Of a stretch of DNA of 64,000 bases, positions 1,975 through 44,706 are shown piece after piece. Source of the DNA: Sporosarcina ureae (GTDB taxonomy: Bacteria > Bacillota > Bacilli > Bacillales_A > Planococcaceae); assembly GCF_002082015.1 (NCBI RefSeq), contig NZ_CP015109.1, positions 768,134 to 832,133 of the forward strand, written 5' to 3'. The position numbers and the translations under genes were made by a program. The notes under the pieces are model-generated. The model was not told the origin of the DNA, searched no databases, and saw only the letters and a list, made by a program, of their open reading frames with translations. Every line of letters starts with the position of its first letter. Positions within the stretch are counted from its first letter, which is position 1.

Positions 1975-2269
1975 AAGAGGCTGGGATATAACTATCTCAC
2001 CCCGTTCCCCTGCACTCCGAAAGGCACGCTTTCCGAGGGGCGTGGCTTGAGCCAAGCGAACAACGTAGGGTTCGCTTTGCCGTATTTCTGTGTACTTTGC
2101 AGAAATTAAGGCACCTGTCCAGGGTCTCAAGACGCACGCTGATCCCTCAGGAGTCGGCCTTTCTCCGTTCCGGTACACTCTGATACTCTAAAAAAATATT
2201 TTCTGATAAGAACAGAAAAAAAGCGTAAAGGATCCCCCCTTACGTTTTTTCTGTTCTGTCCCAACCTCA
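1975..2269 (-). repeat. Structured dispersed repeat, copy 1
   Basis: A ~295-bp segment recurs inverted at 44409-44706 with roughly 95% identity by eye. It is bounded by short inverted ends (GAGGCTGGGA on the left, complement of GAGGTTGGGA on the right). The right arm (about 2207-2258) is a long hairpin of two CAGAA/CGTAAGG-rich arms flanked by T and A runs, as in a terminator. The interior is GC-rich with more small hairpins. It occupies the whole gap between the convergent hisJ and ydcF-like genes. Frames open through it are not conserved as a gene: they simply follow the repeat. Confidence 0.85.
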
Positions 2270-2964: not shown

Positions 2965-4176
2965 TTAAGACTGCTTCACAACTTGCTTTTCATTGACCAA
3001 ACTATGCACTTCAGTCGGTAGTCCCCATAGCTTAATGAAACCGACCGCTGCCGCTTGATCGAACTCATCATCAGATGTATAAGTCGCTAATCTCTCATCA
3101 TATAGCGAATTGGGTGATTTACGACCTTCTACTAATGCATGGCCTTTGAATAACTTCACACGAACTGTACCGTTGACATATTGCTGTGTTTCTTTAATAA
3201 ATGCCTCAAGTGCATTACGTAAAGGAGAGAACCAAAGACCGTTATAAATCAATTCACCAAGTTTCTGTGAAATTATCGGCTTAAAATGTGCTAATTCTTT
3301 TACAAGTGTTAAATCTTCAAGTTCCTTATGTGCTTTCAACAACGTGATGGCTCCTGGCGCTTCATATACTTCACGAGATTTGATGCCGACTAAACGATTT
3401 TCTACGTGATCGATACGGCCGATTCCATGTTTACCAGCCACTTCATTCAACTTGGTGATCAGTTCACTTAATATATAGTTTTCTCCATCAATTGTAACTG
3501 GAACACCTTGTTCAAAGCCAATTTCGATAATATCAGCAGTGTCGGGTGCATTTTCAATAGAAACTGTTAAACCAAATGCATCTTCTGGAGGTGTTGCCCA
3601 CGGGTCCTCTAGAATTCCGCATTCGTTTGCACGCCCCCACAAGTTTTGGTCCACCGAGTATGGATTATCCAAATCAATCGGAATGGGAATATTATGTTCT
3701 TGTGCATAATGAATTTCCTCTTCACGTGACCAGCTCCATGAACGCACTGGCGCTACGACTTCAAGCGATGGATCCAGTGACTTGATTGCTACTTCAAAAC
3801 GTACTTGGTCATTTCCTTTTCCAGTGCATCCATGAGCCACTGCTGTTGCTTGCTCCTGATGCGCAATTTCCACCAACTTTTTAGAGATAAGCGGACGGGA
3901 TAGGGCAGAGACTAATGGATATTTATTCTCATAATATGTTTGAGCTTGCAATGAAAGAAGGACGAAATCTTGTGCGAATTCTTCACGCGCATCGATAACA
4001 TAGCTGCTGACTGCGCCAACTGTAAGAGCTTTTTCTTTAATGAAGTCGAGATCTTTTCCTTCGCCGACATCTAAGCAAACTGCTACTACACTATATCCTT
4101 GATCCGTTAACCACTGAATCGCAACTGATGTGTCTAAACCGCCTGAGTAGGCTAAAACGACTTTTTTCTTTTCCAT
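2965..4176 (-). CDS. argG: Argininosuccinate synthase
   Basis: ArgG joins citrulline and aspartate using ATP to make argininosuccinate, the penultimate step of arginine synthesis. The 403 residues match the usual length. The N-type ATP pyrophosphatase loop SGGLDTS is at residues 11-17, and [13 protein letters not shown] and the WGRANECG region follow. The ATG at 4176 is preceded by AAAGGGGA at good spacing; a longer in-frame opening to 4218 lacks a ribosome site. Unlike the argGH operon of Bacillus subtilis, argH is 50 kb away at 53083. Two ArgR-box candidates at 4204-4237 overlap the probable -10 region, so repression by arginine is likely. Confidence 0.97.
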
Positions 4177-10913: not shown

Positions 10914-11020
10914 TTCTTATCTCTCAAGACAACAATCTTGTTGGAGGTAGCACCTTCCTGTTTGCACAGAGGTTGCTGAAGCTTCATCAGGCCAATTCCC
11001 TCAGCTTCTCTTGATAAGAA
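10914..11020 (-). ncRNA. SAM-I (S-box) riboswitch controlling metA
   Basis: The reverse strand carries the S-box consensus in order: P1 arm TTCTTATCAAGAGA, AGCTGAGGGA, GGCCTGATGAAGC, the CAGCAACC core, AAGGTGCTA, CCAAC and the closing TGAGAGATAAGA. Together with the terminator at 10862-10901 it forms a transcription-attenuating riboswitch that shuts metA off when SAM is bound. Confidence 0.95.
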
Positions 11021-12112: not shown

Positions 12113-12140
12113 TAGTTCTAAATTAATAGTTGTTAAACAA

Positions 12141-12390
12141 TTTTGACGAAGAGATACCTTCCTAAAAAGGATTTTGCAGAGAGCTGATGCCATGGTGAAA
12201 GTCAGCAAATTCTGAGGTTGGGGGCACTTCTGAATTGATTAGCTGAACTTTTTTAGTAGGCTGGTCCGTCACATGCACGTTACGCATGCTGAATGAAGGC
12301 TGCAATTGCAGCAAACAAGGGTGGTACCGCGTTAGTTTATCGAGCTTTTCGCCCCTTACTTATACGTAAGGGATGGAAGGCTTTTTTATT
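12141..12390 (+). ncRNA. T-box leader RNA controlling serA
   Basis: Stem I carries the GCAGAGAGC loop motif near 12176 and a lower stem of CTAAAAAG with CTTTTTTAG. The invariant T-box sequence AAGGGTGGTACCGCG is at 12317-12331, followed by a terminator stem (CCCTTAC with GTAAGGG) and a T run ending near 12390. It senses uncharged tRNA by pairing. AGC, a serine codon, sits just 5' of the closing lower stem where the specifier should be; this fits serA downstream but the exact specifier is inferred. Confidence 0.93.
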
Positions 12391-23429: not shown

Positions 23430-23560
23430 TTGAATAGTTTGAAAAGTAGGTGGAATGAAAATATTTTCATTTCTTAAAAGGGAATCCTTTTCTTGGAGCG
23501 GTCCCGCCACTGTGAAGACGCCAATGCGTCCAGCCAGATACCTGCCTATTTTTCATAACG
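23430..23560 (+). ncRNA. Cobalamin (B12) riboswitch controlling metE
   Basis: Conserved cobalamin aptamer parts appear in order: GTAGGTGG (23446), AAAAGGGAATCC (about 23475), the B12 box GGTCCCGCCACTGTGAAG (about 23501), a side hairpin GACGCCAATGCGTC, and AGCCAGATACCTGCC (about 23532). A hairpin (ACATGCT with AGCATGT, about 23610-23630) and a terminator follow before metE, so B12 binding should stop metE transcription. Confidence 0.93.
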
Positions 23561-23654
23561 CTTAATCCTACGATGAATAGGGAAGTGTTAGACAAACGCA
23601 GTCTATAAACACATGCTGTTTTTAGCATGTTATTTTATATGTACTCGCTTTTCT

Positions 23655-29769: not shown

Positions 29770-29921
29770 ACTGTTCCTTCTCTCATCCAGACTTTAACTG
29801 TCGGCTTTGGAGTTTCACCAAATCCACCTTCTGCTTTATATAAAGCATCCGGGTCACGGACTAAGAGCTTGTTAGCTCATCACCGTCGGTAGGGAATTAC
29901 GCCCTGCCCCGAAGGAAACAT
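29770..29921 (-). ncRNA. FMN riboswitch (RFN element) controlling the rib operon
   Basis: The reverse strand has the RFN consensus: CTTCGGGGCAGGG, then AATTCCCTACCGACGGTGAT, AGTCCGTGACCCG, GGTGGATTTGGTGAAACTCC, AAAGCCGACAGT and ATGAGAGAAGGA. With the terminator at 29673-29706 it should end transcription of ribDE-BA-H when FMN is bound. Confidence 0.96.
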
Positions 29922-44408: not shown

Positions 44409-44706
44409 AAAGAGGTTGGGACAGAACAGAAAAAACGTAAGGGGAATGTCCTTTACGTTTTTTTCTGTTCTTATCAGTAAAAATTTTTTTAGAATAACAG
44501 AGTGTACCGGAACGGAGAAAGGCCGACTCCTGAGGGATCAGCGTGCGTCTTGAGACCCTGGACAGGTGCCTTAATTTCTGCAAAGTACACAGAAATACGG
44601 CCAAGCGAACCCTACGTTGTTCGCTTGGCTCAAGCCACGCCCCTCGGAAAGCGTGCCTTTCGGAGTGCAGGGAAACGGGGTGAGATAGTTATATCCCAAC
44701 CTCTTT
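44409..44706 (+). repeat. Structured dispersed repeat, copy 2
   Basis: Inverted copy of 1975-2269. Its ends form an extended perfect inverted repeat (TAAAATAAAGAGGTTGGGA at 44403-44421, its complement at 44694-44712). Near the left end is a long hairpin (GAACAGAAAAAACGTAAGG with CCTTTACG and a CTGTTC arm). The element fills the entire gap between two convergent genes and its right edge overlaps the TAA of the SLH-NlpC gene. It probably acts as a terminator for both. Frames open through it in both copies are a by-product of the repeat. Confidence 0.88.

Follow-up and report, generated by a model that had tools for sequence, protein, structure and literature searches.

A short repeat of Sporosarcina ureae, very probably an IS1182-family MITE, at the sites of terminator-like hairpins and with a second structured repeat nested inside

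Insertion into hairpins with partial deletion of the target has been described for IS1272, an insertion sequence (IS) of the IS1182 family, in a study in which RNA-seq showed hairpins A to E to be terminators (Furi et al. 2016, PMC4923244; passages on target sites). The mode was subsequently named inverted-repeat-replacing transposition, and in the portions of the paper that treat target sites the targets of some older IS1272 copies are reported not to be inverted repeats (Wan et al. 2017, PMC5678879). Small relatives of such ISs include the MITEs of ISMac2 (IS1182) in Methanosarcina, with lengths of 160 and 169 bp (PMC3852290, section on these MITEs). Among other small repeats, the known enterococcal MITEs include EFAR (PMC3733652, section on such repeats), and the EFAR repeats of Enterococcus faecalis are probably the Efa-1 family, given as 163 bp with two adjacent hairpins in the relevant part of PMC2267715. 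The pneumococcal SPRITE, BOX and RUP elements are small interspersed repeats, with SPRITE being terminator-like and the elements being nested in one another (PMC10969869, passages on these repeats), and REP and REPIN sequences, associated with RAYT (REP-associated tyrosine transposase) genes, are palindromic repeats of 20-40 bp that partly form inverted doublets (PMC3733652, REP section).

The element analysed here resembles several of these systems. By description, its nearest known counterpart in size, double hairpin and target is EFAR, which, in a paper of 2007, is said to insert into stem-loops with their loss; the copies in Sporosarcina are larger by a nested core. With IS1272 and TnSha1, as the target-site passages of PMC4923244 and PMC5678879 present them, the element shares (i) the transposase family, (ii) a palindromic target that is often a terminator, (iii) deletion of the stem-loop, and (iv) the lack of a target duplication; those, however, are full-length ISs or IS-based transposons of staphylococci, whereas here we deal with a 292-bp MITE having other ends and a hairpin of its own. 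The ISMac2 MITEs likewise derive from an IS1182-family IS, yet they reside in another host, and the part of PMC3852290 devoted to them describes neither target mode nor terminators. Similarly, the sections of PMC10969869 on SPRITE, BOX and RUP make no mention of IS1182 ends or hairpin replacement. This kind of element is already known; within the literature searched, what appears to be added is the family itself, its exchange of terminators and the structured repeat nested in it.

The window, that is, the whole stretch of 64,000 nucleotides that was analysed, contains two copies, A and B (Table 1), which are mutually inverted and 96% identical (two complementary arms, one 249 nt long with 97% and one 39 nt long with 95% complementarity) and have the ends GAGGCTGGGAT / GTCCCAACCTC, with the left end of copy A being one base off the consensus. 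A sequence-only reading had recognized an inverted, near-identical pair, with coordinates 1-3 bp wider than those found here, and had described GAGGYTGGGA-type ends, a long hairpin arm at one side, a GC-rich interior, and a location that in both cases fills the gap between convergent open reading frames (ORFs); all of these features are borne out, the hairpin near one end being flanked by A/T. Within the copies there are only short mechanical ORFs. The pattern GAGGYTGGGAY (up to one mismatch) occurs seven times in the window versus 1.6 expected, and copy A with short flanks yields an RNA fold of -110 kcal/mol (z -6.3 on the + strand and -4.6 on the - strand). Four Rfam matches at gathering score were also registered in the window, all of them outside the element (Table 1).

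Table 1. Positions of the two element copies, their parts and neighbours, and of regulatory RNAs elsewhere in the window
Feature	Position	Strand	Remark
MITE copy A	1977..2268	+	292 bp TIR to TIR; among the 12 full-length genome copies
MITE copy B	44412..44703	-	292 bp TIR to TIR; inverted relative to A
Left end of copy A	1977..1994	+	12-copy consensus GAGGCTGGGACATAACTA equals first 18 bp of Sporosarcina IS L150 (by eye)
Right terminal inverted repeat of copy A, GAGGTTGGGAC	2258..2268	-	
Terminator-like hairpin of copy A, A-tract and T-tract	2210..2256	+	
Terminator-like hairpin of copy B, A-tract and T-tract	44424..44470	+	
Nested structured core repeat in copy A	2004..2181	-	model R1, 89.1 bits, E 6e-22
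Nested structured core repeat in copy B	44499..44676	+	model R1, 90.5 bits, E 3e-22
ORF upstream of copy A, 267 aa	1161..1964	+	stop 12 bp before copy A
Convergent ORF on far side of copy A, 191 aa	2290..2865	-	
ORF before copy B, 152 aa	43947..44405	+	stop 6 bp before copy B
Convergent ORF on far side of copy B, 513 aa	44705..46246	-	
FMN regulatory RNA	29771-29920		Rfam gathering score
T-box regulatory RNA	12134-12359		Rfam gathering score
SAM regulatory RNA	10914-11020		Rfam gathering score
Cobalamin regulatory RNA	23431-23563		Rfam gathering score

The genome (G000; a single contig of 3,412,428 bases) holds 17 copies rather than the two of the window, and homologues exist elsewhere. Twelve copies are full-length (286-297 bp between the terminal inverted repeats, TIRs), four have a shorter interior (matches of 238-254 bp; 239-249 bp between the TIRs), and one is truncated (L013). 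The full-length matches are 93-100% identical to copy A (n=12) and, pairwise, 92.7-97.6% identical to each other (66 pairs); the same search additionally returned matches to the interior alone. Exact GAGGYTGGGAC occurs 12 times in the 3.41-Mb genome, every time inside an element copy, and solo terminators of this sequence were therefore rejected for G000 (0/12 motifs outside the element). Being short, non-coding, multicopy and bounded by TIRs, the element has the make-up of a MITE. Its placement is non-random: a stop codon of a mechanical ORF lies within 25 bp of 15/17 copies, with L007 and the truncated L013 as exceptions, and flanking ORFs are convergent at 10/17 copies (a count that stands without the genome-wide share of convergent gaps as expectation), co-directional at 6/17 and divergent at 1/17. 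The constant of placement is thus closeness to a stop codon, with convergent gaps being common and not a rule.

The ends connect these copies to ISs. A search of 61 genomes from the genus gave 107 occurrences of GAGGYTGGGACA, spread over 28 of them (reversed control pattern: 13), and inverted pairs of the motif enclose short elements of 107-329 bp. The IS L150 of genome G015 comprises 1820 bp between TIRs of sequence GAGGCTGGGACA and a 524-aa ORF, the product of which matches the NCBIfam model for IS1182 (NF033551) with an E of 9.6e-128, above cut-off, and is a DDE transposase according to Pfam; the contig starts at the left end of the IS, which leaves a flank on one side only. Over 18 bp, this left end is identical to the MITE consensus. 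A second uninterrupted transposase gene (L171, genome G029; 74% identical) is bounded by GCGGCTGGGACATAAC and GAGGCTGGGACAAAAC, and the TIRs of the MITE thus match the ends of two autonomous ISs; for L171, a search for the empty site gave no match to the flank in four relatives. Beyond the genus, IS1182-family ISs on plasmids of Cytobacillus, Kurthia and Mesobacillus carry GAGGCTGGGACA-type terminal repeats, and those of Terribacillus and Enterococcus faecium have the variant ends GAGAGCGGGACA and GGACCTGGGACA, in a sample of 6 of 426 matching records in which the Mesobacillus match is unannotated and in three pieces. An IS of Staphylococcus equorum (L225), for which the end repeats could not be resolved, was omitted from the counts of IS ends.

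In G000 itself, a profile search for an intact IS1182 transposase gene returned none, and instead three fragments, all below cut-off; there is also a transposase remnant with stops, enclosed by two TIR-like repeats at a distance of about 650 bp. The search for a longer, autonomous copy in G000 accordingly found none, and L151 (genome G073; about 1.1 kb between TIRs) was rejected as an autonomous element, its transposase frame being incomplete. Since the search found IS1182 transposase fragments alone, the copies in G000 are probably stranded. As a side observation, several draft contigs (of G023, G079, G015 and others) have one of their ends no more than about 170 bp away from a GAGGCTGGGACA motif, which would be expected of assemblies interrupted at near-identical elements.

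Comparison with orthologous loci shows what the element stands in for. One-sided flanks of 16/17 copies (all except the truncated L013) were searched in four relatives (G001, G018, G023 and G029), and orthologous sites were located for 14/16, with a two-sided anchor in at least one relative for 13; L002 and L010 had no orthologous flank, and L011 had one side only. At 12/13 of the two-side-anchored sites none of the anchored relatives carries the element, the exception being L012. This pattern and the high identity of the full copies fit the recent spread that the sequence-only reading had proposed. At 11/13 anchored sites the empty place is occupied by a terminator-like hairpin, with sequences that are, by inspection, unlike each other between sites; inspection revealed no hairpin at the empty site of L007 (control rank 0.95) and could not resolve one at that of L009 (control rank 0.02). 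In the control, 70-nt empty-site windows were ranked against 3000 random windows of the relatives' loci (in which the hairpins themselves are included), leaving out L012 and L016 with gaps above 90 nt: the best relative falls into the lowest ~1% at 8/11 sites, and L009, L007 and L008, the last with a weak hairpin (rank 0.21), fall outside.

Junctions were placed at nine sites (14 comparisons with G001, G018 or G029), using 24-nt flanks, dropping 16 comparisons with fewer than 17/24 matching flank bases on one side, and leaving out G023 and gaps above 140 nt. In these comparisons, 23-40 nt are missing from G000, and the missing stretch corresponds to the stem and loop of the relatives' hairpin, with a short, mostly A/T foot left on both sides. 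The clearest case is L005, where the foot TCGCGAA/TTCGCGA is retained and the upper hairpin is absent. A target duplication was found at none of the 9/9 sites with placeable junctions. Hence, the target is an inverted repeat without fixed sequence, of which the stem-loop is lost and nothing is duplicated, as in hairpin-replacing insertion. The L012 site differs among five genomes (L012, L076, L099, L103, L098): a long-core MITE is present in G000, a short-core MITE in G018, and another type of GGCTGGGAC element, about 170 bp long, in G023, with a plain hairpin in G001 and G029. This site may be a hot spot, or one element may have been exchanged for another.

The combination of IS1182-type ends with an IS1272-like replacement of hairpins leads us to identify the element, which had earlier been called MITE-like, as a MITE of an IS1182-type IS: it is very probably a non-autonomous transposon mobilised by an IS1182-family transposase and targeting terminator hairpins. 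The transposase would recognise GAGGYTGGGACA-type terminal repeats and act in trans. The targets are palindromes, in most cases hairpins of intrinsic terminators that directly follow a stop codon. As the comparison of filled and empty sites shows, insertion removes the stem and loop of the target, keeps the mostly A/T foot as flanks and creates no duplication, with an enzymology presumably like that published for IS1272. The A/T-flanked hairpin adjoining one end of the element probably takes over termination, and the GC-rich interior contains another structured repeat, which is independent of the MITE around it.

The possible role of the internal hairpin deserves separate consideration. A long hairpin is located just inside the TIR at both ends of all ISs compared (7/7 ISs, 14/14 ends), with sequences that differ between ISs, and 12/14 IS ends rank at or under the lowest 1% of 2184 overlapping inner windows; most of these hairpins have A and T runs like those of bidirectional terminators, and at least 4/14 are, by eye, without a full run on one side. 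Among 31 short elements (15 of them from G000; L013 and L015 gave no TIR pair), 30/31 have an internal hairpin according to a loose rule that chose the core hairpin in L009 and L010, and 23/31 have one with A and T runs of at least 4. The simplest reading of these sequences is a terminator-for-terminator swap, in which the element would remove one terminator and supply another, and replacement by the element's own hairpin probably restores termination and makes insertion near-neutral. In the available parts of the literature searched, neither these hairpins inside the ends of the ISs and MITEs nor such an exchange was found described, and the terms read-through, readthrough, bidirectional, convergent and replace are absent from the text of PMC4923244. 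It is quite conceivable, if less likely, that the internal hairpins serve recognition by the transposase and not the replacement of a terminator. Their occurrence inside both ends of 7/7 ISs is consistent with such a role, as is the fact that IS1182-type enzymes read structure in their target; the terminator-like A and T runs that flank many stems (23/31 short elements by rule), however, argue against it. This alternative concerns the swap alone and is compatible with the main explanation, and the two roles are not mutually exclusive.

The GC-rich interior (element positions about 28-205) turned out to be a separate structured repeat of ~132 nt. In an alignment of 33 of the 47 sequences found, from which mainly long or irregular ones were omitted, 24/34 predicted pairs show changes on both sides, and 94.7% of paired cells can pair versus 75.4% after shuffling and 32-47% with partners slid; the structure was derived from the same alignment, which favours pairing, and relatedness of the sequences inflates the covariation counts. 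The test for compensatory change proposed in the sequence-only reading thus revealed strong covariation, which resides in the nested core. The covariance model R1 built from this alignment has matches in 113/120 genomes drawn from the order (17/17 genera, all 120 genomes belonging to one family) and in 20/101 genomes drawn from the class, of which 7 are members of the own family; these counts include G000, use E up to 1e-6 per genome without a shuffled control, and, with no more than 28 or 33 candidates scored in each genome, give copy numbers as lower bounds. In the whole-window Rfam search nothing inside the element reached a family's gathering score, and relaxed searches (E up to 10 and 5) gave sub-threshold miRNA families alone, which we took as chance, rejecting an Rfam-known conserved RNA. 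In the literature searched, the core repeat was not found described either.

The core is present outside the MITE and in more genomes than the MITE ends. An IS1182-family IS on a plasmid of Kurthia gibsonii contains it (L221 471-603, upstream or downstream neighbours being the left terminal repeat on one side and the transposase gene on the other), and so does a multicopy IS of this family in genome G071; the absence of an R1 match from the elements L153, L155, L157, L160 and L161 and from the IS L150 implies that it is no fixed part of the MITE. The IS of G071 is another member of the family, with four copies (L175, L180, L181, L182) that are 98.5-99.6% identical; L175 contains an internal core repeat and is itself bordered by direct repeats of 23 bp (1333-1355 and 3068-3090) that lie within imperfect inverted flanks, which may reflect duplication of the target in place of its loss. 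The core also occurs solo and in inverted doublets at many loci of the genus, for example at L025 1195-1326 and 1478-1613. Among 32 of the 33 hits in G000, there are six neighbouring pairs less than 200 bp apart, four inverted and two on the same strand, and the spacers of four G000 pairs measure 127-151 bp.

In light of such a structured interior one may ask if the element is a conserved RNA, as the sequence-only reading had considered, with a regulatory or 3'-UTR role whose benefit to the host at gene ends would have favoured its spread. The very stable fold and the strong compensatory change in the nested core would agree with that; on the other hand, the element is missing from anchored orthologous sites at 12/13, has transposon ends in common with an IS, and contains a core that is found outside the MITE too. 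Because the target is a terminator-like hairpin, a conserved-RNA role is not needed for placement, and as an account of the element we consider it improbable; part of the proposal survives for the interior, where a structured repeat in its own right shows strong compensatory change.

Gene conversion, likewise raised before, or homologous recombination between terminators would allow spread without a transposase, which appears decidedly improbable. The high identity among copies and the variants at the L012 site in three species are compatible with it, whereas the replaced hairpins are, by inspection, unlike the element and offer little to recombine with, and the junctions lie in hairpin stems, as published for IS1272. 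Spread by transposition is therefore preferred, while the L012 variants indicate that exchange, repeated insertion or gene conversion happens as well, and for this one site gene conversion is possible. That the nested core rather than the IS1182 ends drives mobility, for instance via a single RAYT-like enzyme, is highly improbable: the core is indeed found in more genomes than the MITE ends, and the genome has one candidate for a REP-associated tyrosine transposase, yet the same-TIR elements L153, L155, L157, L160 and L161 and the IS L150 are without an R1 match, and there is no core within about 1.3 kb of the RAYT-like gene.

The sole Y1 transposase gene found in G000 (L226:1261-1866; G000 2618429-2618764, - strand) has as its best NCBIfam match the REP-associated tyrosine transposase (68.4 bits, below the cut-off of 80) and is a candidate partner of the core repeat. 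Like REP and REPIN sequences, the core is palindromic, repeated and partly arranged in inverted doublets, and one RAYT-like gene exists in the genome; unlike REPs of 20-40 bp (as given in the REP section of PMC3733652), it comprises about 132 nt, and no physical link to the RAYT-like gene was found. The core may thus be an outsized REP-like element, which we regard as a lead and not as a result. More speculative, and in our view rather unlikely as a whole, is the extended proposal that the core constitutes an undescribed, outsized REP-like mobile family that has spread through Planococcaceae and part of the remaining Bacilli, that rides in IS1182 transposons and that a RAYT may move, and that the terminator-for-terminator exchange of its host MITE is a strategy of neutral insertion common to IS1182 elements of Bacilli.

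Our findings provide the intergenic GAGGYTGGGAC repeats of this group with an origin in IS1182 ends, which explains their position behind stop codons, often between convergent genes. They also suggest that a mobile element that hits terminators can do little harm by replacing what it removed. Finally, the core, an abundant and strongly covarying structured repeat without an Rfam match, deserves a study of its own.
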